Shown: piece after piece, positions 1 to 50,669 of the stretch
Layout of the letters: each line of letters begins with the position of its first letter
How positions within the stretch are numbered: the first letter of the stretch is position 1
Origin: Bugula neritina
Taxonomy: Eukaryota; Bryozoa; Gymnolaemata; Cheilostomatida; Bugulidae
DNA length: 64,000 nt
Assembly (NCBI GenBank): GCA_964035545.1
Contig: OZ037767.1
Span: forward strand, 15,681,498 to 15,745,497
Direction of reading: 5' to 3'
Notes under the pieces: generated by a model
Told to the model about the DNA's origin: nothing
The model's input: only the letters and a program-made list of their open reading frames with translations
The model's database searches: none
Position numbers and translations under genes: made by a program

Positions 1-729
1 TAGTACATGTTGAAAGCCCGAAGTCAAGACGGCCAACAACATTGCCTTCTTTACTAAGGGTCGTATCAGGGTCAGGAATTCTGGGTAGAGTTTAGCATCT
101 ACCACGTAATTCTCTCCGGAGAAACAGCCCGCCGCCCGGTGTCTGGTGACGGGGTAGAGGTAGACATCATTATATCCGCAGGGGCAGAATGTGAGTAATA
201 GGTGGGCGTTGACATGCAGCTTCAAGGAGCAGTGAGAGGCACACTCTTCGCCACAAATCTGGCACCGCGTCTTTCCTTTGGATCCCCAGGCTGTTTCTAT
301 CTGCTACTCCGTTTCCGGGGACACCCACCGCCAGCGGCGACGCAGTGGCTCAGGCCGGTCACCATTGGTGTACTCCTCAGGATGCGGAGCGGGACGTGCT
401 CTATCCCGTACCCTGGTTGTAACGGGTCGAGTGTAACCTGAAAGAGTTTCAACAGTGTTAGTATAATACACTGCAGTGTTGCCGGCTTGGACAGCCTGGC
501 AACTTCTCATTCAGTTAACACTCATAGAGATTTATGGTAGTGAATAGTTGGATAGAACACATATTGCAATGAGATTGCAAAATCTCTAAGTCAAACTGAG
601 TTCTTACCACAATAGTTCACTAACCTATCTCCAGCTCATTTGACTCGGTGAGTTGGAGCTGAGTGATGCAATCTAGTTTCCATATCAAAATATAGTTAAC
701 TCACCCAACGATCCGTTGTTGTAAGACAT
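1..729 (-). pseudogene. el1 third ORF (spliced zinc-finger ORF3), nonsense-mutated and truncated by the window edge
   Basis: Exon 1 is 729-705 (ATG, then eight codons plus one base) and ends at a GTGAGT donor. Intron 704-438 is 267 bases and ends CAG. Exon 2 starts at 437 in phase 1. It aligns with el2 ORF3, including the zinc-finger block near 250-110. A TAG near 304-306 replaces a GGG codon of el2, so this copy cannot make the full protein. It keeps a segment (YPEFLTLIRPLVKKA, near 90-50) that el2 has lost part of. The pol stop is 24 bases upstream of this ATG, the same spacing as in el2. Confidence 0.75.
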
Positions 730-5264: not shown

Positions 5265-7839
5265 CACAGTTGGTTTAAGGTCATTACTTTCCAGATTCAG
5301 GCACTGCTTTATGTTATATATAAACGGTTTCCAGGGGATAGCTCGAACAGTTTTTGTCTCACATTAACAAATTTTACATGAAAAGATAGCTCTTGCATTC
5401 CTCTTTCATATACTTTTTTAATTTTTGAATAAAAATTTTTTTGAGAAAGTTGTTGCATAATAAGTAAAATTTTACACCCTCCATGTTCCACTGCTGTAGC
5501 ACAGGGGATTCATTTTATAAAGTATAAAAGTTAAACTTGACATTCCTTGATATGTTTTCTCTAATATACTTTCTTTGTTTTTTGAAATTCTGTTTATGCT
5601 CTTCACAATTTGGTAAAAACATACACCATTTTGCAAGTTTCACTGCAATTTTCTAAATTCTTCATATGGTGGTTCTAGCTACGCTCCTGTGACTAATTAT
5701 AACATTCCTAGTACGTTTGCCGCTCTGCGCTATCACAATAACATATAGTACCCTCTCGCACAAATTGGCAGTCTATTGGATTTCTGCCAATATAATGTTC
5801 CCTGTTTTACATTAGCACTTAGCTGAATCATCTCACTATGTTACAATAATATATTGAAAATGCCTCAGCACAACATAATTCTTTGTTTGTTTGGCAGAGT
5901 TAATTTCAGCTAAATCACTTCACTTTGCAGTCTTGTCAGTAAAGGTCTGTCTATAGAGCAGCAGGTGTACTTTCAGTTTCTCTAATTCACATATGATTAT
6001 TTTAAGTACATTGTATTCTATAAGATCAATTTAAGGTTTAGTCCAGTGTTCAGTATCTAATTATTATGCATGTATGTTGTCTTACTGTTGAACAAAAGTT
6101 AAAAAAAACTTTACAATTATAGCCATATTTATTATACATGCGTAAGATTTGCATAAGTTTACAAAAAAATTTGTGACAAAACAGGGTTGAAGCATAACCT
6201 ACTAACTCCTCGCTGACGCCTCTAACCTCTAGACCACGCAGTCATAGTTAATAAAGTACGCACTATATGAGTAACTATGATTACATGAATATTTCGCGCG
6301 CAAATGGGTTATAATTATTAGGCTGTCAATTGATGCTGATAGCAGTCAACTGTTGCAATAGTCTCGGGTTACTAGCAAAGCTAATGGTTTTGAACAAATA
6401 ACCCAAAAGTTTAAAAATAAGTAGCTTGCGTATTACTAGCTACAAAAACAGGTCTGAAATAGACTGGTAAAGCAAGCTCTTATTGTAGAGTTTGCAGATG
6501 TGCTCTAAAATAAAACTTAAACTGTATGGTATTACATAAGTATTTGTATGCGAGAGATAAATGGACATTACTGAGTTTCTGGAAAACAACATACTTGAAG
6601 TTAACTTTGACAATGGTGTGTTATTTTCATCATACACTAGCACAGATAGGGCCTATAGCATAAATCTCTAATCATATGAATCTTTATGAAGCCCACAGCT
6701 CATGTAAGGGTGGCAATTGTAATTTGAAACTAAAAATTATGTTGCTGCATTTTGTCTAAGGTATATTAGAGAGCAGAATTTGGTTTTACTAGCCTGCCCC
6801 AACGGCATTCTACAATGCAGCTTATATGCTGGCAGTTGTAATAAGTACTGCCAATAGCAAGGTTACAATCACTGCTAGCTCTGTGCAGTATGTAACCTCT
6901 TGAATAATTGCGCCAATTTTAAACTCTTGGAAGTTGGCCAAGTTATCATATCGCAGCCAGCCACCGGAGACAAAGCATCAGAGCTATTCATATAATATTA
7001 TACTGATGCACTTGGTAGCAGAGTGGCTAATCTAATATAGTTCATAGTTCAACACCCTTTACTTTGGGAATACAGCCTCTTTTTTTAGGTTTACCTTACA
7101 AAGCATGAAAATATCTAAACTGATATTCTGATAATTTAGAGGTACATTTTGAAAACTAGGTTAATTGCACTTGTTTGCACAACAACAATAATAAATTAGA
7201 TATTATGCAGGATAATAAAAACACACATAATACTATATAATATATTATAATGATAATAATATAATATTATAAGTACCATTACTGCATTTTATAAATTACA
7301 TGGTTGCCAAAAAAATGTATCACAAATTTTGTAATTATACATCAAAAATAGAACTAGCTAGGCAGCAGGTTAGAATAGAGTAAATTTTTAAAACATGAAA
7401 TCATGATTTGACTATTGTTTTATTTAGGCCAACCAACCTAGGAATACAAGATTGGGTTTTAGCTGACAGTTTATAACATTTAGCTTTTGAGCCAGCAGCA
7501 CTGGCACTTGTGAAGTATAGGCAAAGTTAGTGAAGCGAGACTAACAAGCACTCAAATACAAGGCATATTGAGACACAATAACAAGTCAGGAGCGTATAAA
7601 TTTAAAAGAATGTGGAAGGGGGACTATGTTTTTCAACAAGCTATAACTTAAACATGAATTGGCTTTTGAAAAAAATAAAAAAGTATATTGGAGAACATAA
7701 GTTTCTTTATCTTTTTATATTTTTTTTGTTCCTGTGACATTCAACCTGTTCGAGCTATCAGTGGAACATTGTTCATATAGAACATAAAGCACCTGGCAAA
7801 GAGCCAGAAAATGAAAAGTATGACCTTAAACCAACTGTG
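5265..7839 (-). mobile_element. L copy A: 2.58-kb non-autonomous DNA transposon inserted in el1 gag
   Basis: It starts CACAGTTGGTTTAAGGTCAT and ends with the inverse. The two ends stay similar for roughly 200 bp, including an internal GATAGCTCGAACAG block, so the TIRs are long and imperfect. It interrupts gag between GGCAAA and AATCGC. Comparison with uninterrupted el2 gag gives a 2-bp target duplication AA. The interior is AT-rich with no transposase; the short open frames are not convincing. The ends CACAG...CTGTG with a 2-bp duplication resemble CACTA-like (CMC) elements, but I cannot assign a superfamily. Orientation is opposite to copies B and D. Confidence 0.88.
6182..6242 (-). other. 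tRNA-like segment inside L copy A
   Basis: On the minus strand this reads GGTCTAGAGGTTAGAGGCGT, like the D-arm/A-box of tRNA-Glu-type genes, followed by a decayed B-box (GCTTCAACCC). The same block in copies B and D has an intact GGTTCAACCC. It is probably a tRNA-derived pol III promoter captured by the ancestor, not a working tRNA. Confidence 0.5.
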
Positions 7840-10436: not shown

Positions 10437-13011
10437 CACAGTTGGTTTAAGGTCATACTTTTCATTTTCTGGCTCTTTGCCAGGTGCTTTATGTTCTATA
10501 TGAACAATGTTCCACTGATAGCTCGAACAGGTTGAATGTCACAAGAACAAAAAAAATATGAAAAGATAAAAAAACTTATGTTCTCCAATATACTTTTTTA
10601 TTTTTTTCAAAAGCCAATTCATGTTTAAGTTATAGCTTGTTGAAAAACATAGTCCCCCTTCCACATTCTTTTCAATTTATACGCTCCTGACTTGTTATTG
10701 TGTCTCAATATGCCTTGTATTTGAGTGCTTGTTAGTCTCGCTTCACTAACTTTGCCTATACTTCACAAGTGCCAGTGCTGCTGGCTCAAAAGCTAAATGT
10801 TATAAACTGTCAGCTAAAACCCAATCTTGTATTCCTAGGTTGGTTGGCCTAAATAAAACAATAGTCAAATCATGATTTCATGTTTTAAAAATTTACTCTA
10901 TTCTAACCTGCTGCCTAGCTAGTTCTATTTTTGATGTATAATTACAAAATTTGTGATACATTTTTTTGGCAACCATGTAATTTATAAAATGCAGTAATGG
11001 TACTTATAATATTATATTATTATCACTATAATATATTATATAGTATTATGTGTGTTTTTATTATCCTGCATAGTATCTAATTTATTATTGTTGTTGTGCA
11101 AACAAGTGCAATTAACCTAGTTTTCAAAATGTACCTCTAAATTATCAGAATATCAGTTTAGATATTTTCATGCTTTGTAAGGTAAACCTAAAAAAAGAGG
11201 CTGTATTCCCAAAGTAAAGGGTGTTGAACTATGAACTATATTAGATTAGCCACTCTGCTACCAAGTGCATCAGTATAATATTATATGAATAGCTCTGATG
11301 CTTTGTCTCCGGTGGCTGGCTGCGATATGATAACTTGGCCAACTTCCAAGAGTTTAAAATTGGCGCAATTATTCAAGAGGTTACATACTGCACAGAGCTA
11401 GCAGTGATAGTAACCTTGCTATTGGCAGTACTTATTACAACTGCCAGCATATAAGCTGCATTGTAGAATGCCGTTGGGGCAGGCTAGTAAAACCAAATTC
11501 TGCTCTCTAATATACCTTAGACAAAATGCAGCAACATAATTTTTAGTTTCAAATTACATTTGCCACCCTTACATGAGCTGTGGGCTTCATAAAGATTCAT
11601 ATGATTAGAGATTTATGCTATAGGCCCTATCTGTGCTAGTGTATGATGAAAATAACACACCATTGTCAAAGTTAACTTCAAGTATGTTGTTTTCCAGAAA
11701 CTCAGTAATGTCCATTTATCTCTCGCATACAAATACTTATGTAATACCATACAGTTTAAGTTTTATTTTAGAGCACATCTGCAAACTCTACAATAAGAGC
11801 TTGCTTTACCAGTCTATTTCAGACCTGTTTTTGTAGCTAGTAATACGCAAGCTACTTATTTTTAAACTTTTGGGTTATTTGTTCAAAACCATTAGCTTTG
11901 CTAGTAACCCGATACTATTGCAACAGTTGACTGCTATCAACATGAATTGACAGCCTAATAATTATAACCCTTTTGCGCGCGAAATATTTATGTAATGATA
12001 GTTACTCATATAGTGCGCATGTTATTATCGATGACTGCGTGGTCTAGAGGTTAGAGGCGTCGGCGAGGAGTTAGTTGGTTATGGTTCAACCCTGTTTTGT
12101 TGCAATTTTTTTTGTCAACTTATGCAAATCCTACGCATGTATAATAAATATGGCTATAATTGTAAAGTTTTTTTTAACTTTTGTTCAACAGTAAGACAAC
12201 ATACATGCATAATAATTAAATACTGAACACTAGACTAAACCCTAAATTGATCTTATAGAATACAATGTACTTAAAATAATCATATGTGAATTAGAGAAAC
12301 TGAAAGTGCACCTGCTGCTCTATAGACAGACCTTTACTGACAAGACTGCAAAGTGAAGTGATTTAGCTGAAATTAACTCTGCCAAACAAACAAAGAATTA
12401 TGTTGTGCTGAGGCATTTTCAATATATTATTGTAACATAGTGAGATGATTCAGCTAAGTGCTAATGTAAAACAGGGAACATTATATTGGCAGAAATCCAA
12501 TAGACTGCCAATTTGTGCGAGAGGGTACTATATGTTATTGTGATAGCGCAGAGCGGCAAACGTACTAGGAATGTTATAATTAGTCACAGGAGCGTAGCTA
12601 GAACCACCATATGAAGAATTTAGAAAATTGCAGTGAAACTTGCAAAATGGTGTATGTTTTTACCAAATTGTGAAGAGCATAAACAGAATTTCAAAAAACA
12701 AAGAAAGTATATTAGAGAAAACATATCAAGGAATGTCAAGTTTAACTTTTATACTTTATAAAATGAATCCCCTGTGCTACAGCAGTGGAACATGGAGGGT
12801 GTAAAATTTTACTTATTATGCAACAACTTTCTCAAAAAATTTTTTATTGAAAAATTAAAAAAGTATATGAAAGAGGAATGCAAGAGCTATCTTTTCATGT
12901 AAAATTTGTTAATGTGAGACAAAAACTGTTCGAGCTATCCCCTGGAAACCGTTTATATATAACATAAAGCAGTGCCTGAATCTGGAAAGTAATGACCTTA
13001 AACCAACTGTG
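10437..13011 (+). mobile_element. L copy B: complete 2575-bp copy
   Basis: It is full length, from CACAGTTGGTTTAAGG to the inverse end, nearly identical to A (inverted) and D. No transposase is present. It joins directly to a second, rearranged copy at 13012. The base order there (element end followed by AATCTA) matches insertion into the internal site of another L element, giving a 2-bp AA duplication half. Confidence 0.88.
12033..12095 (+). other. tRNA-like segment inside L copy B
   Basis: The A-box-like TGGTCTAGAGG (12040-12050) and B-box-like GGTTCAACCC (12083-12092) have tRNA-like spacing. No acceptor stem pairing is evident, so this is a pol III promoter relic or a captured SINE head rather than a tRNA gene. 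Confidence 0.5.
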
Positions 13012-19000: not shown

Positions 19001-19307
19001 TGTGGTGGCTCGTGGAGCTACCAGCAGCACGGTACGCAGGGTCACATAATTGACTCGGAACAATGACAGCCAATTAGCGGCTTTAATAGTTAGTAGCAGT
19101 AGTAGTTTTCCCGCTGTTAGTCAGTCGAAGTTAGAGTGCTGAATAATCTAGATGTGTGAAATTATTAGATGTGTTTTTATAGTTTTTGTAATGTGTTATT
19201 GTGTTTAAAATATATACTCGTTCACTCGACTTATCCTGGTGAAGTTCTCTAGCAAGTAATTAGACTCTCTGAATTGCATATCAACCCTAATTCTGAAAAT
19301 CATAACA
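19001..19307 (+). repeat. el2 5' LTR
   Basis: It starts TGTGGTGGCTCG and ends CATAACA, 307 bp. It differs from the 3' LTR at three transition sites, near 19055, 19212 and 19272. Confidence 0.95.
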
Positions 19308-19308
19308 G

Positions 19309-19326
19309 TGGTGGCAGCGGTGGGAT
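19309..19326 (+). other. el2 primer binding site (tRNA-Leu type)
   Basis: TGGTGGCAGCGGTGGGAT lies one base after the 5' LTR and is the complement of a tRNA-Leu 3' end with CCA. Confidence 0.85.
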
Positions 19327-19340
19327 AGTGCACATCCAAG

Positions 19341-20294
19341 ATGGAGACTGAAAACGCTGGAATGCAACCACCTGCAGTAGAAGGTGAGCGTAGAGACAAT
19401 GCTGTAGGGACAATGCCTGTCAACCATGTAGTAGAAGAGCGAAGGGTTCCGCGGGAACTAACTGAAGACCGCTACCGGTTAAAGGCGCTCACCTTCATGG
19501 GTGAAGAAGAGGTGGAGCAATTCATCCAAGAGTTTAGCGACGTAATGGACGTCGCCCAGTGCCCCCCTAGGGTGGCCCTGCTGAAGCTTAGAATGGCATT
19601 GATGGACAAAGCCAAGCCTTATGGACTGGGAGTAGACATCGATAATATCTTTGCTTCTCTGCCGGCCCGCTTCGGCCTCTCTGCTACAGATGCCCGGGCC
19701 CGACTACAAAGGCTGCGGCGTGATCCCCGCACCCCGCTACGGGAACATGCCGCCGCGGTCATGAAGCTGGCACAGATCACGTACAGCGACTTGCCCCCAG
19801 CCAACTGCGAGAGGTATACCCTTGACGCTTTCATAGCATCTGTCGACGATCTGGGTCTCAACCACCAGTTTCTAGCTAGGGGAGTCACCACCGTTGAGGA
19901 TGCTCTGACAGAGGGGGAAGCTTACCTCCTAGCCAATCAGATGCATAAAAGTCGCGGGAACTCCCGTCAAGTGGAGGTAGACCGCGCGGACACGGCAGCG
20001 GGACGAGAGGAGGAAACCTCCGCGACGGCTGCCGTGGCTCAGTTAGCGACGGCATCGAAAGTCACTCAACTGACTGACATGCTGGCCAAACTGATAGCAA
20101 CACTGACACCCCAAGCCCCAGTAGGTACCGCCGCTGAGCCCGTACGGCCACCGGCGCCGCCACCGTGGGAAACGGTCAGTTTTTGCTGGGAATGCGGGAA
20201 TCAAGGACATTTCCGCAGGTACTGTCCCTTCCTAACTCCGGGGTTAAACTACCGCGGCCCGCAGATGTTCCCACCTTTTGCGGGCCGACGATGA
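19341..20294 (+). CDS. el2 Gag polyprotein
   Basis: The 317-residue open frame is intact. The ATG at 19341 lies 14 bases after the PBS, and the frame aligns with el1 and el3 gag from the region near residue 40. The capsid-like core is about residues 45-185. The C-terminus has a CCHC zinc knuckle, CWECGNQGHFRRYC (residues 282-295), which binds RNA in retroelement Gags. Gag forms the cytoplasmic particle that packages element RNA. The protease frame overlaps the gag 3' end at -1, so Pol is probably made by ribosomal frameshift, though I could not pick a convincing slippery heptamer. The donor-like site at nucleotide 43 is listed separately. Confidence 0.9.
   Translation: METENAGMQPPAVEGERRDNAVGTMPVNHVVEERRVPRELTEDRYRLKALTFMGEEEVEQFIQEFSDVMDVAQCPPRVALLKLRMALMDKAKPYGLGVDIDNIFASLPARFGLSATDARARLQRLRRDPRTPLREHAAAVMKLAQITYSDLPPANCERYTLDAFIASVDDLGLNHQFLARGVTTVEDALTEGEAYLLANQMHKSRGNSRQVEVDRADTAAGREEETSATAAVAQLATASKVTQLTDMLAKLIATLTPQAPVGTAAEPVRPPAPPPWETVSFCWECGNQGHFRRYCPFLTPGLNYRGPQMFPPFAGRR
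19380..19389 (+). promoter_or_regulatory. Candidate splice donor inside gag (D1)
   Basis: GAAG/GTGAGC matches the 5' splice-site consensus. The cut falls after nucleotide 43 of gag (14 codons plus one base, phase 1). A donor-like AAG/GTGAG occurs at exactly the same position and phase in el3 (39037/39038) and el1 (8239/8238). Joined to the ORF3 acceptor it keeps frame. Confidence 0.5.
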
Positions 20295-21388: not shown

Positions 21389-22145
21389 CACAGGATAGTT
21401 AAGGGCATCTTCACGAAGAATATTATAAATTTCTCTCAAAATGTAGTTTAAGTTCTTGAATAATATGGCTTTGTGGGTGTCATGCGTGTTGCCTACTTGC
21501 AATTGTTTAGCCTAAGATCAAACTACAACCAATAAGCAGCAACCTTCATTAGGACTGCGTAATCTATCAACATTCCATTATGGGTGCTACATGAACAAAG
21601 TACAAAGCAAGCTATTCATTATAGCCTGCCAGCTAGTAAGCCTGTAATTAGTATGTACGCGCCAATATCTTCTCACCCCTACGTGCTCATTGAAGCGTGG
21701 AGTACTGCGCGCAGCTAATTTTCTATGAAAAAATATAGCATTTTCAGTGTATAAATCACTAATTTATGGGCAATCTAGAAGAGTTATCGGCAAAAGAAAA
21801 AAAACTTGCACTGGAGAAATATCTCAGGATTTCAGCAGTGCAATTTTTATTCAGATATCATGTTTTCCTGCTGAGATATTTTTTTGGTACTGAAAAGTCA
21901 GCTTTTCAGGCAAAATTGGCCAAAATTGGGCAGTTTTCTGTTTATAACTTTGCAACAAAAATGAAAATTGAAATTTCCAAAAAACTTACACTGGGGAAAA
22001 AGAAGATCTAAAACATAGTTTTTAAATTTTGACTCTAGCACAATTAGGTGAGATTTTATTTTACTGGTACTGAATTCTTATATGATTACAATGCAAACCT
22101 CAGCAAGGCAGTTGCAGCTAAAAGGTTGCCCTTAACTATCCTGTG
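21389..22145 (+). mobile_element. S1: 757-bp MITE inserted in el2 pol
   Basis: TIRs are CACAGGATAGTTAAGGGCA at both ends. Flanks are GCCAA and AAGCTATGG, and el1 pol has the uninterrupted site, so the target duplication is AA (2 bp). No transposase is encoded; the conserved short open frame inside is not convincing. It is nearly identical to S2 in opposite orientation. Confidence 0.92.
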
Positions 22146-25050: not shown

Positions 25051-25806
25051 CACAGGATAGTTAAGGGCAACCTTTTAGCTGCAACTGCCTTGCTGAGGTT
25101 TGCATTGTAATCATATAAGAATTCAGTACCAGTAAAATAAAATCTCACCTAATTGTGCTAGAGTCAAAATTTAAAAACTATGTTGTAGATCTTCTTTTTC
25201 CCCAGTGTAAGTTTTTTGGAAATTTCAATTTTCATTTTTGTTGCAAAGTTATAGACAGAAAACTGCCCAATTTTGGCCAATTTTGCCTGAAAAGCTGACT
25301 TTTCAGTACCAGTAAAATATCTCAGCAGCAAAACATGATATCTGAATAAAAATTGCACTGCTGGAATCCTGAGATATTTCTCCAGTGCAACTATTTTTCT
25401 TTTTCCAATAACTCTTCTAGGTTGCCCATAAATTGGTGATTTATACACTGAAAATGCTATATTTTTTCATAGAAAATTAGCAGCGCGCAGTGCTTCACGC
25501 TTCAATGAGCACGTAGGAATGAGAAGATATTGGCGCGTACATGCTAATTACAGGCTTACTAGCTGGCAGGCTATAATGAATAGCTTGCTTTGTACTTTGT
25601 TTATGTAGAGCCTATAATGGAATGTTGATAGATTTTGCAGCCCTAATAAAGGTTGCTGCTTATTGGTTGTAGTTTGATCTTAGGCTAAACATTTGCAAGT
25701 AGGCAACACGCATGCCACCCACAAAGCCATATTATTCAAGAACCTAAACTACATTTTGAGAGAAATTTATGATATTCTTAGTGAGGATGCCCTTAACTAT
25801 CCTGTG
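25051..25806 (-). mobile_element. S2: 756-bp MITE inserted in the el2 pol tail
   Basis: The same TIRs as S1, in the opposite orientation. Flanks are ATATGA and GAAGTGG, and el1 has the empty site, giving a 2-bp duplication GA. It is nearly identical to S1. Confidence 0.92.
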
Positions 25807-26361: not shown

Positions 26362-27495
26362 ATGTCTTACGACAACAGATCGTGGGGTGAGTTAACTATA
26401 TCTTGATATGGAAACTAGATTGCATCGCTCAGCTCCGACTCACTGAGTCAAACGAGCTGGAGATAGGCTAGTGAACTACCGTGGTAAGAACTCAGTTTGA
26501 CTTAGAGATTTTACAATCTCATTGCATACGTGTTCTATCTGACTATTCACTACCATAAATCTCTACGAGGTAACTGAACGAGAAGTTGCCAGGCTGTTCA
26601 AGCTGACAACACTGCAGTATATTATACTAATGCTGTTGAAACTCTTTCAGGTTACACTCGACTCGTTACAACCAGGGTACGGGATAGAGCACTTCCCGCT
26701 CCGCATCCTGAGGAGTATACCAATGGTGACCGGCGGTGGGTGTCGCCGGAAACAGAGGGGCAGCTAGAAACAGCATGGGGATCCAAAGGAAGGACGCGGT
26801 GCCAGATTTGTGACGAGGAGTGCGCCTCTCACCGCTCCTTGAAGCTGCATGTCAATGCCCACCTCTTACTCACATTCTGCCCCTGTGGATATAATGATGT
26901 CTACCTCTACCCCGTCACCAGACACCGAGCGACGGGCTGTTTCTTCGGAGAGAATTACGTAGTGGATGCCAAACTCTATCCAGAATTCATAACTCTGTTG
27001 TTGGCCGTCTTGACCTCAGGTTTCCAGCGCGTACTAGACTATGCCAGGCAACAATCTCCATTGGTATCCGACCGCCCTCAGATTGTGTACACCCCCGAAG
27101 AGTTTGCCTATCCCGAAGAAGGAGAGGTCTCTCCTACCCCGACGAAAAGACGGACCCGGTCTCTAAGTCCCCCTCTTCGTCGCAGACGGACACCGTCCCC
27201 AGACCCCGCTCGCCTGGCTACTGTGGAGGAACGCCTCTTCCGACTGCAGGCTGAATTTACCCAGCTAGCACCGGATCTGCTTAATACCACGACGGGATTC
27301 TTTCAGTTAAAAGGCTCGGTTGGCCGGATCAAAAGCAAGTTACGTACATGCCAGGCCAAACATCGGCGTGCCCAACACTGCCTCTGGTTCTGCTGCCGGA
27401 ATGATCCACAAGCCTCGTCTTCTTGGGGATCCAAGACTATCATGCAAATGCTTGACTGCTCGACAGCTCGATTCCTTGTCCAATATTACAACTAA
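26362..27495 (+). CDS. el2 ORF3: spliced double zinc-finger protein of unknown function
   Basis: Exon 1 is 26362-26386 (ATG, eight codons, one base), intron 26387-26650 (GTGAGT...CTTTCAG, 264 bases), exon 2 26651-27495. The product would be 289 residues. Exon 2 encodes a Pro/Arg-rich start, then a classical C2H2 finger (C-x2-C-x12-H-x3-H from 26800), then a second finger C-x-C-x12-H-x4-C up to about 26940. After that come a YVVD-containing block, a basic Ser/Pro-rich region, and a predicted amphipathic segment (LATVEERLFRLQ...LKGSVGRIKSKL) that may form a coiled coil. No signal peptide or membrane segment is seen, so an envelope role is unlikely; nucleic-acid or particle binding is a guess. 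El2 lacks about nine residues after YPEF that el1 keeps. Exon 2 is open in el2. Confidence 0.7.
26387..26650 (+). other. ORF3 intron of el2
   Basis: 264 bases between GTGAGT and a pyrimidine-containing CTCTTTCAG acceptor, phase 1. El3 has an intron of exactly 264 bases at the same codon phase (42175-42438) and el1 one of 267 bases. Confidence 0.7.
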
Positions 27496-27671: not shown

Positions 27672-27978
27672 TGTGGTGGCTCGTGGAGCTACCAGCAGCA
27701 CGGTACGCAGGGTCACATAATTGACCCGGAACAATGACAGCCAATTAGCGGCTTTAATAGTTAGTAGCAGTAGTAGTTTTCCCGCTGTTAGTCAGTCGAA
27801 GTTAGAGTGCTGAATAATCTAGATGTGTGAAATTATTAGATGTGTTTTTATAGTTTTTGTAATGTGTTATTGTGTTTAAAACATATACTCGTTCACTCGA
27901 CTTATCCTGGTGAAGTTCTCTAGCAAGTAATTAGACTCTCTGGATTGCATATCAACCCTAATTCTGAAAATCATAACA
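27672..27978 (+). repeat. el2 3' LTR
   Basis: A 307-bp copy of the 5' LTR with three transitions. It is followed by ATAT (27979-27982), the target duplication. Confidence 0.95.
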
Positions 27979-30536: not shown

Positions 30537-33500
30537 ATGAATCAGAATGAAGTGCTAAAGTTCAGTCAAATACTCACTAGTATTAGAGATAGAGATGATG
30601 AGGGGAATATTCTGACTGAGCTGAAGAAGTGCCTTTCTTTCATATCATTAGAAGAGAGATATAGACTATTGTGTGAGGAATATAGAACAATACACTGGGC
30701 AGCTGAGAAAGGGTATACTGACACCATCAAATGTCTACTAGATGATGTATCAGTAGAACAGAAGGTAGAGCTACTCATGATACAGAACGGTGGAGATGAG
30801 ACAGCTATACACTGTTCAGCAAAGAGAGGACATACTGACATCATCAAATATCTACTAGATGGTGTATCAGCAGAACAGAAGGTAGAGCTACTCATGATAC
30901 AGAACAGTGAGGATGAGACAGCTATACACAGTGCAGCATGCAAAAGACATACTGACATCATCAAATGTCTACTAGATGGTGTATCAGTAGAACAGAAGGT
31001 AGAGCTACTCATGATACCTAATGGTAATGGGTGGACAGTTATAGAAATTGTAATAGGCAATGGGCATACTGACACCACCAAATGTCTACTAGATGGTATA
31101 TCAGTAGAACAGAAAGTAGAGTTACTCAAGGCAACTGAGTGTTATGCTATACACTCTGCAGCATACAGAGGACATACTGACATCATCAAATGTCTACTAG
31201 ATGGTGTATCAGTAGAACAGAAAGTAGAGCTACTCAAGATACAAGACGTGGGGGATGATAAGACAGCTATACACATTGCAGCATGCGGAGGACATACTGA
31301 CATCATCAAATGTCTACTAGATGGTGTATCAGTAGAACAGAAAGTAGAGCTACTCAAGATACAGAATGATGATAAGACAGCTATACACATTGCAGCATGC
31401 GGAGGACATACTGACATCATCAAATGTCTACTAGATGGTGTATCAGTAGAACAGAAGGTAGAGCTACTCATGATACCTAATGGTGATGGGTGTACAGTCA
31501 TAGAAATTGTAACAGATAATGGGCATACTGACACCATCAAATGTCTACTAGATGGTATATCAGTAGAACAGAAGGTAGAGTTACTCAAGGCAACTGAGTC
31601 TTATGCTATACACTTTGCAGCATACAGAGGACATACTGACATCATCAAATGTCTACTAGATGGTGTATCAGTAGAACAGAAGGTAGACCTACTCAAGATA
31701 CAAAACTGGGATGATAAGACAGCTATACACATTGCAGCATGCGGAGGACATACTGACATCATCAAATGTCTACTAGATGGTGTATCAGTAGAACAGAAGG
31801 TGGAGCTACTCATGATACTTAATGGTGATGGGTGGACAGTTATAGAAATTGTAATAGGCAATGGGCATACTGACACCACCAAATGTCTACTAGATGGTAT
31901 ATCAGTAGAACAGAAAGTAGAGTTACTCAAGGCAACTGAGTGTTGTGCTATACACTCTGCAGCATACGGAGGACATACTGACTTCATCAAATATCTACTA
32001 GATGGTGTATCAGTAGAACAGAAGGTTGACCTACTCAAGATACAAGACTTGTGGGATGATAAGACAGCTATACACAATGCAGCATGCGAAGGACATACTG
32101 ACATCATCAAATGTCTACTAGATGGTATATCAGTAGAACAGAAGGTAGAGCTACTCAAGATACAAAGCTCGGATGATAAGACAGCTATACACATTGCAGC
32201 AAAGAGAGGTCATACTGACACCATCAAATATCTACTAGATGGTGTATCAGTAGAACAGAAGGTAGAGCTGCTCAAGATACAGAATAGAGATGGTAATACA
32301 GTGATACAGGAAGCAGCTAAGACTAACCAAACACAGATTCTCACTCTTTTGATGAGTCAGCTGACAACAGAGCAGCAGCTAAAACTTTTTAATTTATCAA
32401 ACCATGAAGAACGAACATCTTTAGATGTTGGTGTAAATAATGAAATATTTGGACTCCAGAGAATTGCCTCTATAACGGAACAAAGAGATGATGCAACAAA
32501 CCAAGTTCCAGGTAAAATGACCAATTTCTAAACAGACTATTTTAATTAAGGTCAACTAATCTTAAAACAACATAACTGTGATATGTTAGCAGTACGAAGG
32601 AATATCATGCAATAATGAAAAGTAAATTCTAAAGTTTCAAAAGTCATGTTTATATTCTCCATCTATGATTCAGAGAACCTACTGTTTAGCCTCGGGTGAC
32701 AATTAGCGAATGAATGCCCTGGAAACCTTTAAAATACTACATAAATGTTTTCAATGACCAAAAAGCATAATTAAATAAAGACAGAAATTTGTTCATTATG
32801 CTTTGTCACAGGTAACAATAGATTGATCATTTTTTGAACTAAACACACAGGTCAATAAAAGAGTGCAATTTAATTATTTTTAAAACAAATACAGATGCGT
32901 TTTTGAAATTTAGCATTGCCAACTTTGGAATTTTGTAAATGATGAAAAATGCAAAAAAAGTGAAATTAGTATTTCATAATAAATAGGGGTGACTGGGGGG
33001 GGGGGGAGGGGACACAACGGGCTTCTTTTTAAGTTTTTTGCTCATTAGTCTGTCTTTTAAGTTACTAGTTCAATAATCTCTAGTCCAAATGCTACACCAG
33101 TTGTCTATTATAGGTATCAGTTGGTTGTTTTTATCTCTTTCACAACTTTTAGAATAATGAAATTTTCATGAGGAGAGAAATGGCCCATGGTGCCCCAATT
33201 CTAGTCATTATTGCAATACCTTTTTATTAAAAAAAATCACGATTCTAAGTCAATATTATGTTCTCTCACAATTTGACTGGTTTTTTTGTGCCCCTATATG
33301 ACCTTTGTGCACCCATTACCCCATACTAAAAAGTTGCTAATTTGACAAATTTTAAAAAATAAATTATATTATAATTATTCACCCCACAAACTGAAACATT
33401 TAATTGTATGTAACATTTTGCTGTAATTAATCCTTGTACTCATATTATTTAAGTGCCTATAACAATCATCTATAAATTTAAAAGCCCAACATAGCCCGTT

Positions 33501-36500
33501 CACATATTTTATATTATACACGTTTAACATTTTTTTAAACGCAGATTTCTGGAAAGAGCAGACACATCACCATCCTTTGCACAGTGGTGAGTTTCCACAT
33601 TCATCACCAGGTTTGCCACATCAACCAACATCTACACAGCACTGGCTGCAACCAACACACCTAAGACAACCATCTTATCTACAAACGGCGCCACAGTTGA
33701 TCCATCTTCAGCCACCTTGGTTTCAACTCCCTTCACAACACATGCATGCTGAGCCACTGAACAATACTGATGGTTCTTTTTCTATGCCGTACCTACCCAC
33801 ACCATCAAAACCACAGTGGTGTCCTAAATCAGAGAATTTCACAACCAGCTTACCATCTCAGCCTCTTCAATTGAATGCCCCATCTTTCAACCATTCAAAG
33901 GACTGGTCTCTATTCAACCCTCCATCTTTTAACATGCCATCTACAAACCCTTCTCATTTGAATGGTGACAGCAACATCCACAGAGAAGCAGACACTCAGT
34001 TCAAACAGCCACCACATTCAATCTCCAACTTTTCTAACAATGCTCCACCAGAAGTACAAATGCAGAAAAAAAGTTTTAGAAGCAGGGAAATAGAAAATGA
34101 ACACAAATCCGATTTGAAATTGAAAAGTAACACAAATTCTCCTGTTATTGACGTTGCACAAGAAAGCAATTCGTTTATTCAAGTTTTTGACTTGAAAAAG
34201 CAAACAAACAAAGTTTCACACAACAAAAGACCTGCAGAAACAGCTATGACAGTTTTACCCCCAAATAAATATCAAAGGACTGCATGTAAGTTATATAAGT
34301 TGGTAGTCTGCTAGTCTTTGCTGATTCTTGCAGCTTACTATAAAAATTTATTTGTCCTAAATGTTGAAAATTATAAAATAGTTAGTGAGTTGTTAAACAA
34401 ATGATAATTGACTGCCATATTTTAAGGTTTTTTACTAAATAAATTATTTTTATGAATCAATGTCCTCAACATTTATTATAGCTAAAATATTATTTGTATT
34501 ATCTTTACAGTTGAAGCACCAACTCAGTCGACTACTCTCTCACATGATTTAACGTCAGATACGGGATCATCACAACTGAGTCACTTAAACACTGTGGCAC
34601 CACACCAAGCTTTTTCAGGTCTTGAAGCGCCGCATGAACATGTGTCAGCAGAAAACACAATGGAGAACATGGCGCAGTCAACTGAGGTTCCTTCTTTGAT
34701 AGATGCCGCGGTTGCAGCACCACATCAAGATATACCTGCTTATACTGTAGCGGTACACCAAGCAGTTTCACTTCCTACTAGATCAGATGGGCCATTCAAG
34801 AGTAAGTTAATTGCGTATTTGCCTCGAAGCCTACATATTTGTTACATTGATGATGTGTAATTACACTAAGATTAAAGTTGGCTTTGTGATCATGTGACGG
34901 GTTTTTCATGCAGGTAAAGTGAAAAACTGTAAAGTAACTGTAAAAGTTCAGGGAGAGAACACAGTCTACTCATTTGAAGATCACATGACTATTGGAGATC
35001 TCAGGCGTTGCATAAAGGAAGACTGTGAAACTGGTGTATTGTGTCGTGTAGTTGATGAAGGTAATGTGCATATGTGTGATGGTATAGTAAAAAGATGAAA
35101 ATAAATAGCTTCATATTAAAAGAAATATAGTTAGATTTTAGACTTTTGAATTAAAAATATTTTATTATAATCTTCTAATAAACTAGCCTAGAAACTTAAT
35201 TAAAAATTGAAATACTGTAAAATAGTTTTGCTCCCACTGAGATTCAACCCGAGAACTCCAGCTTGCAAGCAGGCGTGCAACCACTATACACCACAGAGGG
35301 CCCTGAGTAAACTAGAGCGCTACTTCCCACTTTGTTCTCAAAAACTCCACTGGCCCTTCTTCTACACCTTCAGTCTTCAATTGCTCCTTTGGCTTTTTAA
35401 CTCCCTCGGAGTGCTACTATACTACAAAAAAGGCCGAAATCGCTTATAAAACTTTTGCCCTCAGTGGGATTCAAACCTGAGACATCCAATTTACAAGCAG
35501 ACTGTTACCATTACATCACAGGGGACTACTGGGTAAACCCAACACTGCAAATACTGCATAGTATCCGTGCTCAATATTTTAATATATATGGCTAAATCTC
35601 AATATCACCATATTATTCTGCTGTTGCATTACTCATTATTGTTTCATAACGTGTAAAAGTAAATAAATGAAGATCTTCAGTAGGTAATCCTTTGTTTGAA
35701 AGCTTTATATCATTTTAGATAAATCAAGATGCTCTGACTCTCTCAGACTTGGATTAGTAGATGTGCCATTCTCAATATTTGTTGAGAACCAAGAAACACT
35801 GGTTACAGGTTTGTTGATATAAATTATAAATTACAGTAATCATGAATAAAAATGTAACATTCTATTCACATTTTATTTTAACATGTGTTTATAAAGTTTC
35901 CTATATACCTCAAGGCTACCCATTACGATAGCATGCATGACTTTTGTGTATTTTGTAGAACGAGTCAGTGACAAGCAGGCTGGCCAAGATTTGTCAGCTC
36001 CTAATGCTGCAACAAGTTTTCAATATGGTATGACAACTCTTACTATATATAATGAGATAAGACAACCCTTACTATATATATATAATGAGCAAAGACAACT
36101 CTTACTATATATAATAAGATAGGACAACTCTTACTATATATAATAAGATAAGACAACTCTTACTATATATAATGAGATAAGACAACCCTTACTATATATA
36201 ATGAGATAAGACAAATCTTACTATATATAATAAGATAAGATAACTCTTACTATATATAATGAGATAAGACAACTCTTACTATATATAATGAGATGAGACA
36301 ACTCTTACTATATATAATGAAATAAGACAACTCTTACTATATATAATGAGATAAGACAACTCTTACTATATATAAGATGAAGAGGCAATTGTAGAGTTTG
36401 ATATATATGAACAGCTGTTATATTACACTCAGTAATATCTCCTATAGCTGAGATATAATACTAATACTTATATCTTCTCATAGCTTAATATGTAAATATT

Positions 36501-38614: not shown

Positions 38615-38960
38615 TGTAATGGGATTACGTAGCATAATAATGGGGTCGTCCCCTCCTGTGTGGAATACTTATAACTATGTTCTACTATCCAATCAGAGGG
38701 ACCGGAAGGCAAGGTTCCGGTCAAGTGACTGTGCGCGGGTTAGCTAGCAGAAACCATGTGTTGTTGAGAGCAGGGGCTCGTGGTAGTAACATGTGTTTAT
38801 AATTGATTGATGTATTGTGGTATTTTGATGTAATGTTATAATTATTATTATCGAGTTAAATAAAGGTTATCGTACGCAAGCTCTACTAGTGATTGCTAGT
38901 TAAATTGAAACTAAATACGCAGGCAATCCACGCTTGATAATTGTGCTAAAACTCACAACA
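38615..38960 (+). repeat. el3 5' LTR
   Basis: It starts TGTAATGGGATT and ends TCACAACA, 346 bp, with AATAAAGG near 38870. It is paired with 43464-43808. Confidence 0.93.
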
Positions 38961-38961
38961 G

Positions 38962-38980
38962 TGTTGGCAGCGGTGGGATT
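38962..38980 (+). other. el3 primer binding site
   Basis: TGTTGGCAGCGGTGGGATT matches the tRNA-Leu-type PBS of el2 with one mismatch at the third base. Confidence 0.75.
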
Positions 38981-38994
38981 TCGCGTATATCAAG

Positions 38995-39799
38995 ATGACA
39001 GATAGAGGCACAGAGCTACCCATTTGGAGGAATGAAGGTGAGGAAGATAACGTTGCTATACCTATAGAACCAGAAGTGAGGGTGCATAGGGAATGTTATG
39101 AGGAGAAGTACCGGCTGAGGGTGCCCACCTTCTCAGGTGAGGAGCCGGTGGAGCAATTCGTTCAAGAATTCCAAGATGTAATGGAGGTTGCACAGTGGCC
39201 ACCCAGAATAGCATTGCTCAAGCTCAGGATGGCACTGTCAGACAAGGCCAAGCCATACGGAGTGGGACCAGACATTGACGGAATCTTTGCTTCCCTGCGG
39301 GCCCGTTTTGGTATCTCCGCTGTAGATGCCCGGGCCCGTCTCCCGTCTCCGCAAGCAAACCGTGAGAGGTACACTTATGATGCCTTCGTGCAATCCATCA
39401 ACGACTTGGGACTCCATCACCAACTCCTGGCGAGGGGAGTCACCACGGTCGAAGGTGCGCTTGCAGAAGGGGAGGCTTACCTTCTGGCCAGTCAGCTGCT
39501 CCTACCGCTTCTACCGCGGATAACCCAGCGGTGGCCATGGTGACGCAGATGACGGTGGCATCGAAGGTCGCACAAATGACCGACATGCTAGCCGAACTGG
39601 TTTGCGCCTTGGCCCCTCTCAGCCAGCTAGACACCACCCGTGAGCTTGACGGGCCACCGGTGCAGTCGCCTAGTAGAGGACACCCCTCCTGCTAGGAGTG
39701 CGGAAAACCAGGACACTTCCAGAAACACTGTCCCCAACTTCAACCAGGGTTAAACTACGACAGCCCGCGGATGCTCCCACATCCGGCAAGCCGCCGATA
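38995..39799 (+). pseudogene. el3 gag relic
   Basis: Starts at ATG 38995 and is open to 39543 (182 residues). It aligns with el2 gag (VEQFVQEFQDVMEVAQ, KAKPYGVGPDIDGIFASL) but lacks about 28 residues after DARARL and stops early. Remnants continue to a zinc knuckle near 39691-39735 in which a TAG interrupts the CX2C. The donor-like AAG/GTGAGG at 39037/39038 is again 43 bases from the ATG. Confidence 0.85.
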
Positions 39800-42152: not shown

Positions 42153-43250
42153 ATGGCTTGCCAAGAATCGAGAGGTAAGTTAATTATGTTTTTGGTACGA
42201 AGGCTAAACTGTATTAATCAGCTTAACTGTAACAGAATAAGCTGGAGACTTGGTAATAATTTTTAGTGGTGGGAATTCACATTGACTCTAAGACTGAGCA
42301 GTCTGTTACAGCAGTGGGTGTTTTCGATCAACTATTCATTAACTGAGCCTCACGAGTGTCTAATTGAGTTAAGTACCCACCAGGCTGTATAGGCCGGTTG
42401 TACTCAGTGTACCCTCTTACACTGTTATACTCTTGCAGATCACACTCGATTGACCAACTCTGGGTCACAAGACCAACACCCCCTCTCCTCCTTGGATAAC
42501 GGACCGGAAATGGACAACGGATTGCCCGCGATACTGCGTCGAAGACACAGATGGGTGCCGCGACGGACGGAGCGGCAAATTTAAGAAGCCTGGGGACCGA
42601 GTAGGTCACAACGCACTTGCCATGTATGTTACGAAGAGCTTCCCTCACACCAAGGACTACGGCTGCATGTGATTGCACACTTCCTACTACGCTTCTGTCC
42701 GTGTGGATTCCACGACGTATACCCATACCCCGTCGTGGCACATATGATGGACTGTTTCACAGGCGAAGGCTATGTAGTGGACGTGGACAATTACGACCAG
42801 TATCTAGAAGCCATTAGACCAGTGATTAAGAAGGCTTTGACCTGAGCCGCATTATCCTTCGGGTTTTATACACTGCTAACAGCCGCCCGCCAGAAATCCC
42901 CTATGGTAAAAACGGTCGCTGCGATCATACCTCGGCCAGACAACACCCCCATGGAAGCATCAGACTCTTTAGAAGAAGTGACGCCAACTCCAACCAGGCC
43001 TAACCGACTAGCAACTGTTGAGGAAAGACTCCTACGACTGCAGGATGAATTCACCCAATTCACCCGGCTTATTCAGCACTTCAATGAGCCTTAGTGAACT
43101 AAAGGGCTCAGTGGGACGCCTTAAGCGTAGATTACATGCACGGCAAGAACGCCACCGGATCCAGTCCCTGCAAAACTAGGAGCTGGAAGTTGACAATTCC
43201 ACCCCGCATATCCCCGGGGTACTACATTGTGATCGTGTAAATGCTTGATC
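42153..43250 (+). pseudogene. el3 ORF3: spliced double zinc-finger ORF, with stops
   Basis: Exon 1 is 42153-42174 (ATG, seven codons, one base), intron 42175-42438 (GTAAGT...TCTTGCAG, 264 bases), exon 2 from 42439. The frame aligns with el2 ORF3: C2H2 finger C-x2-C-x12-H-x3-H from 42618, a second finger C-x-C-x12-H-x3-C to about 42752, GEGYVVD, then LATVEERLLRLQDEFTQ near 43010-43060 and LKGSVGRLKRRL near 43100. Two in-frame stops (near 42580 and 42843) and a frameshift near 43090 disable it. The protein is strongly diverged from el2 except at these motifs, so they are the constrained part. Confidence 0.72.
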
Positions 43251-43463: not shown

Positions 43464-43808
43464 TGTAATGGGATTACGTAGCATAACAATGGGGTTGTCC
43501 CCATCTGTGTGGAATACTTATAACTATGTTTTACTATCCAATCAGAGGGACCGGAAGGCAAGGTTCCGGTCAAGTGACTGTGCGCGGGTTAGCTAGCAGA
43601 AACCATGTGTTGTTGAGAGCAGGGGCTCGTAGTAGTAACATGTGTTCATAATTGATTGATGTATTGTGGTATTTTGATGTGATGTTATAATTATGTTTAT
43701 CGAGTTAAATAAAGATATCGTACGCAAGCTCTACTAGTAATTGCTAGTTAAATTGAAACTAAATACGCAGGCAATCCACGCTTGATAATTGCGCTAAAAC
43801 TCACAACA
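43464..43808 (+). repeat. el3 3' LTR
   Basis: 345 bp, ends TCACAACA and is followed by ATAT (43809-43812). It differs from the 5' LTR by about a dozen substitutions and a one-base indel. Confidence 0.93.
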
Positions 43809-47726: not shown

Positions 47727-48103
47727 AAGTTCAGAGCTTCCCAGCTCTATGTAGTCCTTTAATCAGCTATATACCACATGAAAAATAAAACTGTTCGTAT
47801 TTTGTAATTTAACAAAACAATATTCCACTATAAAATGAATAAAGTTTGTTACTAACTTACTGTTGTAGCATTTACGAAGTGAACTTATTGAAAAAGCTTA
47901 TAACAATGCCCACATACAACAAAAATTTTCATTTATAGATTTTTCCTTATTATTCCCATGTTGAAAATTTTGTTCTTACAGTTTAAAGTGCCGGCAACTT
48001 AAGAGATGTACTTATAATATTTACTTTGCAATTATTAAGTAACATGAAGTGTGTTATATAGCAGCAAGATCGTCGGATATAGAAAATTGGTAAAGTATAT
48101 GTA

Positions 48104-50669
48104 CACAGTTGGTTTAAGGTCATACTTTTCATTTTCTGGCTCTTTGCCAGGTGCTTTATGTTCTATATGAACAATGTTCCACTGATAGCTCGAACAGGTT
48201 GAATGTCACAAGAACAAAAAAAATATGAAAAGATAAAGAAACTTATGTTCTCCAATATACTTTTTTATTTTTTTCAAAAGCCAATTCATGTTTAAGTTAT
48301 AGCTTGTTGAAAAACATAGTCCCCCTTCCACATTCTTTTCAATTTATACGCTCCTGACTTGTTATTGTGTCTCAATATGCCTTGTATTTGAGTGCTTGTT
48401 AGTCTCGCTTCACTAACTTTGCCTATACTTCACAAGTGCCAGTGCTGCTCGCTCAAAAGCTAAATGCTATAAACTGATCAGCTAAAACCCAATCTTGTAT
48501 TCCTAGGTTGGTTGGCCTAAACAAAACGATAGTCAAATCATGATTTCATGTTTTAAAAATTTACTCTATTCTAACCTGCTGCCTAGCTAGTTCTATTTTT
48601 GATGTATAATTACAAAATTTGTGATACATTTTTTTGGCAACCATGTGATTTATAAAATGCAGTAATGGTACTTATAATATTATATTATTATCATTATAAT
48701 ATATTATATAGTATTATGTGTGTTTTTATTATACTGCATAATATCTATTTTATTATTGTTGTTGTGCAAACAAGTGCAATTAACCTAGTTTTCAAAATGT
48801 ACCTCTAAATTATCAGAATGTCAGTTTAGATATTTTCATGCTTTGTAAGGTAAACCTAAAAAAAGAGGCTGTATTCCCAAAGTAAAGGGTGTTGAACTAT
48901 GAACTATATTAGATTAGCCACTCTGCTACCAAGTGCATCAGTATAATATTATATGAATAGCTCTGATGCTTTGTCTCCGGTGACTGGCTGCGATATGATA
49001 ACTTGGCCAACTTCCAAGAGTTTAAAATTGGCGCAATTATTCAAGAGGTTACATACTGCACAAAGCTAGCAGTGATAGTAACCTTGCTATTGGCAGTACT
49101 TATTACAACTGCCAGCATATAAGCTGCATTGTAGAATGCCGTTGGGGTAGGCTAGTAAAACCAAATTCTGCTCTCTAATATACCTTAGACACAATGCAGC
49201 AACATAATTGTTCATTTCAAATTACATTGACACCCTTACATGAGCTGTGGGCTTCATAAAGATTCATATGATTAGAGATTTATGCTATAGGCTAGCTATT
49301 ATGAAAATAACACACCATTGTCAAAGTTAACTTCAAGTATGTTGTTTTCCAGAAACTCAGTAATGTCCATTTATCTCTCGCATACAAATACTTATGTAAT
49401 AGCATACAGTTTAAGTTTTATTTTAGAGCACATCTGCAAACTCTACAATAAGAGCTTGCTTTACCAGTCTATTTCAGACCTGTTTTTGTAGCTAGTAATA
49501 CGCAAGCTACTTATTTTTAAACTTTTGGGTTATTTGTTCAAAACCATTAGCTTTGCTAGTAACCCGAGACTATTGCAACAGTTGACTGCTATCAACATGA
49601 ATTGACAGCTTAATAATTATAACCCATTTGCGCGCCGAAATATTTATGTAATGATAGTCACTCATATAGTGCGCATCTTATTAACGATGATTGCGTGGTC
49701 CAGAGGTTAGTGGCGTCAGCGACGAGTTGGTTGGTCATGGTTCAACCCTGTTTTGTTGCATTTTTTTTTTGTCAACTTATGCAAATCCTACGCATGTATA
49801 ATAAATATGGCTATAATTGTAAAGTTTTTTTTTAACTTTTGTTCAACAGTAAGACAACATACATGCATAATAATTAGATACTGAACACTGGACTAAACCT
49901 TAAATTGATCTTATAGAATACAATGTACTTAAAATAATCATGTGAATTAGAGAAACTGAAAGTACACCTGCTGTGCTATAGACAGACCTTTACTGACAAG
50001 ACTGCAAAGTGAAGTGATTTAGCTGAAATTAACTCTGCCAAACAAACAAAGAATTATGTTGTGCTGAGGCATTTTCAATATATTATTGTAACATAGTGAG
50101 ATGATTCAGCTAAGTGCTAATGTAAAACAGGGAACATTATATTGGCAGAAATCCAATAGATTGCCAATTTGTGCGAGAGTGTACTATATGTTATTGTGAT
50201 AGCGCGCAGAGCGGCAAACGTACAAGGAATGCTATAATTAGTCACAGGAGCGTAGCTAGAACCACCATATGAAGAATTTAGAAAATTGCAGTGAAACTTG
50301 CAAAATGGTGTATGTTTTTACCAAATTGTGAAGAGCATAAACAGAATTTCAAAAAACAAAGAAAGTATATTAGAGAAAACATATCAAGGAATGTCAAGTT
50401 TAACTTTTAGACTTTATAAAATGAATCCCCTGTGCTACAGCAGTGGAACATGGAGGGTGTAAAATTTTACTTATTATGCAACAACTTTCTCAGAAAATTT
50501 TTTGTTGAAAAATTAAAAAAGTATATGAAAGAGGAATGCAAGAGCTATCTTTTCATGTAAAATTTGTTAATGTGAGACAAAAACTGTTCGAGCTATCCCC
50601 TGGAAACCGTTTATATATAACATAAAGCAGTGCCTGAATCTGGAAAGTAATGACCTTAAACCAACTGTG
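48104..50669 (+). mobile_element. L copy D: complete 2566-bp copy
   Basis: Same termini as A and B and the same orientation as B. The element is flanked by TA on both sides (2-bp duplication). The homologous W1 locus near 15540 has the empty site, so insertion came after the W1/W3 duplication, or was lost from W1. Confidence 0.9.
49693..49750 (+). other. tRNA-like segment inside L copy D
   Basis: A-box-like TGGTCCAGAGG and B-box GGTTCAACCC (49739-49748), as in copy B. Confidence 0.5.

Follow-up and report, generated by a model that had tools for sequence, protein, structure and literature searches.

In two related Gypsy families the third open reading frame behind pol (ORF3) is, in a reading that we hold with moderate confidence, a selected accessory gene whose RNA is alternatively spliced from either of two donors, D0 in gag and D1 after a short exon beside pol, to one common acceptor, A2, and whose product would regulate the RNA of its own element. 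The genome holds copies in which each of these two junctions is present to the base, ORF3 evolves under purifying selection, and the small intron between D1 and A2 is conserved in sequence from one family to the other.

The window, a stretch of 64 kb (G000:C3:15681498-15745497), contains three Gypsy copies, which we call el1, el2 and el3; the genome searched was the window's own 216-Mb assembly, the sole eukaryote genome scanned. The copy on the minus strand, el1, is interrupted by a nested repeat and cut by the window edge. In el2, Pfam recognizes Asp_protease_2, RVT_1, Integrase_H2C2 and rve in the Gypsy order, in separate frames of the copy; the order of protease, reverse transcriptase and integrase, the LTR pairs, the primer-binding site, and the 4-bp target duplication ATAT at the flanks, which recurs at the flanks of el3, assign these elements to the Ty3/Gypsy group. 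The el2 primer-binding site is presumably complementary to a tRNA-Leu-type 3′ end. About 750 bp of the pol region of el2 are present as an inverted duplication (21389-22145 and 25051-25806, arms 94-97% complementary), and el2 is for this reason an internally rearranged copy, although its two LTRs are nearly identical. The features of the three copies are collected in Table 1. Elsewhere the window carries one open frame that encodes 664 aa of ankyrin repeats (30537-32531; Pfam Ank_2, E 3.9e-97), which holds internal repeats of 117 nt and larger, a tandem array with a 29-base period and copies up to 93% alike (36019-36424), and a multi-copy long repeat, mostly 97-99% alike (5265-7839, 10437-13011, 48102-50670), one copy of which is inserted inside el1. 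Rfam at gathering thresholds gave no match.

Table 1. Positions in the window of the exons, introns, LTRs and primer-binding sites of the three Gypsy copies.
Feature	Position	Strand	Basis or remark
el1 ORF3 exon 2, cut by window edge	1..437	-	in-frame TAG at 306-304
el1 small intron, 267 nt	438..704	-	
el1 alternative ORF3 exon 1	705..729	-	followed by donor GTGAGT
el2 5′ LTR	19001..19307	+	304/307 identical to 3′ LTR
el2 primer-binding site	19312..19326	+	sequence
el2 gag leader exon, 14 codons + 1 nt (phase 1)	19341..19383	+	donor D0 GTGAGC at 19384
el2 alternative ORF3 exon 1 (ATG + 7 more codons + 1 nt)	26362..26386	+	direct reading; followed by donor D1 GTGAGT
el2 small intron, 264 nt, conserved, possibly structured	26387..26650	+	acceptor CTCTTTCAG
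el2 ORF3 exon 2, zinc fingers (C2H2, C2HC-like), basic C-terminus	26651..27495	+	
el2 3′ LTR	27672..27978	+	LTR pair comparison
el3 5′ LTR	38615..38960	+	332/345 aligned bases identical to 3′ LTR
el3 primer-binding site	38965..38979	+	sequence
el3 gag leader exon, 14 codons + 1 nt (phase 1)	38995..39037	+	donor D0 GTGAGG at 39038; used in retrocopy L071
el3 alternative ORF3 exon 1 (7 codons + 1 nt)	42153..42174	+	followed by donor D1 GTAAGT
el3 small intron, 264 nt	42175..42438	+	
el3 ORF3 exon 2, broken in the el3 copy	42439..43179	+	
el3 3′ LTR	43464..43808	+	LTR pair comparison

A sequence-only reading of this DNA had described, behind pol in all three copies, a short ATG exon, a GTRAGT donor, introns of 264, 264 and 267 bases and a junction in the common phase 1. 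Direct reading confirms each of these, and the exon and intron coordinates given there are exact to the base in el1, el2 and el3; the residues TRL said to follow the junction are found in el2 and el3, while el1 has TRP. Because of the TAG in el1, and because exon 2 of el3 meets a TAA at 42582-42584 and then further stops, el2 has the sole open ORF3 among the three. Its frame lacks, without a shift, about 51 nt that are present in its relatives, and overruns their usual stop by 38 residues. Stops occur in many genomic copies of ORF3, el1 and el3 included, which argues against reading every copy as active.

The conservation of this arrangement was followed in 60 genomic copies, 30 el2-type and 30 el3-type, which are the best matches to intron-spanning queries; since such queries exclude intron-less copies by design, the set is uninformative on the frequency of intron loss. 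The intron measures 262-267 nt throughout. Its donor GT is kept in 58/60 copies (lost in L022 and L067), its acceptor AG in 59/60 (lost in L036), and the ATG of the short exon in 29/30 el2-type and 30/30 el3-type copies (lost in L012). The earlier claim that position, phase and length of the intron are conserved between the families is thus borne out, and its sequence proves to be conserved as well. Intact copies in which the donor was lost and exon 2 remained intact had been named as the observation that would speak against a function. Only L067 fits this description, with no stop over the compared codons, and we rejected it as an intact counter-example since it is an element fragment truncated at its 5′ side. 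The fragment starts at 42108, near an acceptor-like site before the short exon, and there abuts unrelated DNA; its D1 donor is mutated.

Exon 2 encodes the pattern C-x2-C-x12-H-x3-H, followed by C-x-C ... H-x3/4-C, and the Cys and His expected to bind zinc are kept in 27-30 of the 30 copies of each family (one column, 29/29). The two families have a C-terminal motif in common, VEERL-RLQ-EFTQ ... LKGSVGRLKRRL, which a simple motif search matched in 46/60 copies, and their basic C-terminal 20-mers carry net charges of +8 and +10. The el2 protein also has strongly basic stretches, and an arginine/serine-proline stretch that is absent in el3. A protein search of the own genome gave 917 candidates, of which 138 were scored, and 138/138 matched. 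Pfam reports no family above its cut-off for ORF3 (the best, Zn_SUZ12, reaches 12.7 bits vs a cut-off of 28), the search of solved structures returned no relative (best E 0.64), and a fold model built from four pieces of the window has a pLDDT of 36, with a helical middle at very low confidence.

The median pairwise dN/dS in the frame of ORF3 is 0.12 for the 30 el2-type and 0.15 for the 30 el3-type copies, as compared to 1.6-2.4 and 1.3-1.8, respectively, in the wrong frames, and 0.5-0.8 in the introns. The dN/dS comparison on exon 2 that had been proposed as a check therefore points to strong purifying selection, in agreement with the function that the sequence-only reading had inferred from conservation. 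Synonymous divergence of exon 2 among copies (26653-27378, 42441-43060) is about 0.24-0.39, two to three times the dS that these copies show at the pol end (0.12-0.13), an excess that may stem from mutation or from recombination with older lineages. Between el2-type and el3-type copies exon 2 is near saturation (median pS 0.74 over 900 pairs; for 413 pairs the distance is beyond correction).

When single copies of el2 and el3 are compared, the introns align with a z of 12.8 over mononucleotide shuffles, the pol 3′ end with 11.2, exon 2 with 10.6, and the segment that precedes the short ATG with 7.7; the LTRs, which had been described as unrelated and come close to being so, reach 3.2, and the 3′ UTRs 3.1. 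Within families the introns diverge by 0.05-0.06 (p-distance), and most LTR and 3′ UTR windows by 0.09-0.12; lower values were met in a single LTR window of el3 (0.04) and a single window of el2 (0.06). An estimate based on the exon 2 dS of 0.27-0.32, set against this intron p-distance, put the conservation of the intron at five times the neutral level; it was toned down, as LTR/3′ UTR divergence and the dS of the pol end are also low: judging from these distances, the intron is only modestly more conserved within families, and the comparison between families is the stronger one.

A consensus fold was derived from 50/60 introns; the other 10, including L067, had been removed manually to reduce the number of close copies. 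It contains 40 pairs, and 98.4% of its cells are paired vs 31-49% when it is slid. The covariation score of 0.214 is larger than in all 500 shuffles (mean 0.172), a score that is inflated by the presence of two families alone; doubly changed pairs number 7 vs 5.0 in the shuffles (48/500 as high), further pair types are no better than shuffles (476/500), and the folding of single sequences is weak (z −1.67 and −0.78). On these alignments we consider the conservation of the intron sequence to be firm, and its structure no more than suggestive.

These observations also bear on what ORF3 might act upon. C2H2 zinc fingers often bind DNA, and a protein directed at DNA or chromatin, whether it activates the LTR in the way of Tat, counteracts silencing or targets integration, would be consistent with the strongly basic stretches of el2 and with the ATAT target duplications of both el2 and el3. 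We take this alternative seriously but deem it unlikely: the conserved non-coding element sits in a transcribed intron, while the LTRs differ between the families, a combination that fits an RNA target better, if not decisively.

That the small intron is in fact removed by splicing, as had been proposed, is borne out by copies that lack it. Junction probes of 26 bases for el3 and 27 bases for el2, allowed up to 3 mismatches, identified in the own genome seven copies that are exactly intron-less, three el3-type and four el2-type, with 0 matches for the reversed-pattern control of either probe. All seven junctions were read: the intron is absent to the base, and the pol 3′ sequence continues into the short exon. 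In intron-spanning searches with DNA from the pol end to the 3′ UTR, the matches of some copies likewise break at donor and acceptor, give or take two bases shared between BLAST matches. At C4:19376399 and C6:6204730, two of the four el2-type junctions, a gag-start context is present 5.4 kb to the upstream side. Genomic copies of this kind are best read as reverse-transcribed spliced RNAs, and indicate that splicing takes place in the living host.

In trees built on the flanking exon sequence the intron-less copies are nested among intron-bearing ones. Well-supported branches of the el2 family tree (36 rows) force at least two intron changes, and at least two are also forced in the el3 family tree (36 rows, short pieces), so that at least four separate losses are counted across both families. 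Three of the four intron-less el2-family copies (L074, L075 and L077) form one clade; this intron-less lineage seems to have multiplied, and its amplification implies that an element has no absolute need of the intron in cis. Compared over approximately 270 nt with L021, L026, L037 and L038, the frame-shifted L034 being left aside, ORF3 of this clade shows pS of 0.23-0.35 and pN of 0.035-0.052, values for a branch on which the intron may have been lost early or late. The constraint on ORF3 in copies of this sort argues for a further use of the protein or for another route to its production. In another intron-less copy, L069 (G000:C6:4478500-4479100), the pol end upstream of ~42108 is far more diverged than the ORF3 side, which can be read as a chimera or as a distinct pol subfamily.

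The phase of the second donor, D0, matches that of A2 (both phase 1), and the D0-A2 junction was predicted before it was searched for. With 1 mismatch, the el3 probe matched at a single place in the genome, and its control at none. The copy found there (L071, L072) consists, in this order, of LTR, primer-binding site, gag start, ORF3 exon 2 and 3′ LTR; its LTRs are identical at 345/347 positions, its frame is open for 261 aa from the gag ATG, and its 4-bp flanks differ (CTGG/CTTG). It bypasses the short exon, joining the gag donor to the acceptor that is also used by D1. As D0 and A2 have AG in common, there is a small probability that this copy arose by deletion at a microhomology. For the el2 family neither the own-genome probe nor a degenerate pattern revealed a D0-A2 junction; a lone match with 3 mismatches (L073) was dropped as due to chance, as the surrounding DNA is without any element match. 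The el2 D0 probe has 160 genomic matches with up to 3 mismatches (74 forward, 86 reverse), and GT is kept, by visual count, in 99/100 among the matches listed, a figure to be read with the GT of the probe itself in mind. One el3-type copy, L052, has an altered D0 context, GGTGAA.

The proposal that the short ATG exon beside pol provides the start of ORF3 is not supported as it was stated, because removal of the D1-A2 intron alone leaves ORF3 behind pol, and because the lone copy of a message without gag-pol skips the short exon. With one acceptor and two donors, the D0-A2 message is devoid of gag-pol and the D1-A2 RNA keeps pol. Given the constrained ORF3 of the intron-less clade, the short ATG exon may still serve. 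It could do so in a doubly spliced message of the tat/rev type, with D0 joined to an acceptor-like site, A1, before the short ATG, and D1 then joined to A2: the AG of A1 is kept in 59/60 copies, as is the short ATG, and the fact that L074, L075 and L077 have lost A2 yet retain a constrained ORF3 suggests a route independent of A2. We nonetheless rate this route as rather improbable. The own-genome search for a D0-A1 junction returned 0 matches in el3 and, in el2, a single match with 3 mismatches that is the unspliced site; furthermore, the joined D0-A1 frame stops soon after A1, and ORF3 would consequently need re-initiation.

Finally, it might be argued that the intron-less and the gag-pol-less copies arose by template-switch deletion and that the splice signals are relics. 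Deletions at short microhomologies do occur in retroelements, and an AG is present at the junction in D0, D1 and A2 of el3 alike. Against this origin, which we judge very improbable, speak eight copies, spread over two families and several independent events, that end exactly at the donor and acceptor predicted, and reversed controls that gave 0.

In the alternative splicing scheme that we favour, RNA started in the 5′ LTR would carry D0, D1 and A2, and when unspliced would serve for gag-pol and for packaging. Joining of D0, after the 14th gag codon, to A2 would remove gag-pol and yield a subgenomic message for a gag-leader/ORF3 protein, whereas joining of D1 to A2 would take up the acceptor and spare gag-pol, removing only the conserved 264-nt intron and leaving pol in place; D1 probably competes with D0 for A2. 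The D0-A2 junction was seen once, in the el3 family, and the D1-A2 junction in seven copies from both families, which indicate that D1-A2 RNA is copied back into the genome. The protein predicted from these messages would most likely bind nucleic acid and regulate the RNA of its own element, in the manner of CERV (the corresponding protein of the Cer1 element) or of Rev. By analogy with CERV it may handle the intron-bearing genomic RNA, either in export or in use, with the conserved intron as candidate target.

Lentiviral Rev with its response element and deltaretroviral Rex are small spliced products with a basic motif. The likeness to these systems lies in a conserved, possibly structured intron element that is missing from the spliced RNA, ORF3 being a candidate for the protein side; unlike in these systems as compared, the intron-less copies of the Gypsy elements described here can amplify. 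A complete switch of the Rev/RRE kind, in which the donors compete, the structured 264-nt intron retained in genomic RNA is the response element, and the ORF3 protein translated from the spliced RNA binds this intron so that full-length RNA is exported or spared, is an extension that we put forward only tentatively and think doubtful; the intron-less clade would then have escaped the need for the switch by loss of the acceptor.

LTR retrotransposons frequently carry an additional ORF behind pol, and many such ORFs lack a known role; those of bdelloid rotifers are of other kinds than the present one (envelope-like, esterase, protease). The bdelloid ORF3s are described as captured behind pol and typically expressed from spliced messages, in a paper whose main text does not contain the words "intron" and "zinc" (PMC5408684). 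According to the sections consulted, spliced third ORFs occur also in plants (PMC7264820). The closest parallel is Cer1 of C. elegans, also of the Gypsy group. In the parts of its description used here, the ORF behind pol encodes the C-terminal portion of CERV, a protein that is made from spliced mRNA, shares the gag frame and is required for export of the genomic RNA (PMC10309623). Compared by description, the first exons of Cer1 share the gag frame as the gag leader does here, and the predicted protein of the one D0-A2 copy joins 14 gag codons to ORF3 in the same way; the last acceptor of Cer1, TTTCAG, is that of most el2-type copies; and CERV has a possible zinc finger and a candidate nuclear signal, which we list as a likeness to ORF3 (PMC10309623). 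CERV has five exons and 517 aa, as opposed to two exons, ~261 aa and only 14 gag codons here (PMC10309623, same sections), and, as far as these go, el2 and el3 differ from Cer1 by the second donor with its conserved 264-nt intron.

In gypsy of Drosophila and the other errantiviruses, as outlined in the part of the source that we draw on, the third ORF is likewise expressed from a spliced subgenomic mRNA without gag-pol (PMC4276936), and the one LTR-flanked copy of the el3 family corresponds, as DNA, to such an RNA. The errantivirus product is an envelope glycoprotein (PMC4276936), while ORF3 looks like a soluble zinc-finger protein and adjoins an extra intron. Despite the position after pol and the spliced subgenomic RNA as in gypsy env (PMC4276936, same part), we rejected an envelope as scarcely credible, since ORF3 has no clear membrane segment (its 19-residue hydropathy peaks at 1.44 and 0.97), conserves its zinc-finger ligands, and matches no envelope family in Pfam.

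Among the best literature matches, judged by titles and the starts of abstracts, we recognized no description of Gypsy elements whose ORF3 encodes zinc fingers and has an intron of its own. As far as the literature was searched, the combination of a zinc-finger ORF3, a minimal gag leader, and a second donor with a conserved 264-nt intron, together with genomic fossils of both spliced messages, seems to be new. Here the record of the spliced messages is preserved in the genome, a protein start in gag is indicated, and both protein and intron prove to be conserved; what was a vague ORF3 can now be framed as part of a well-delimited splicing switch with two donors and an RNA as candidate target, which makes a virus-style gene switch testable in these elements. 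If ORF3 is regulatory, this would suggest that Rev-like control arose outside the vertebrate retroviruses more often than Cer1 alone shows.
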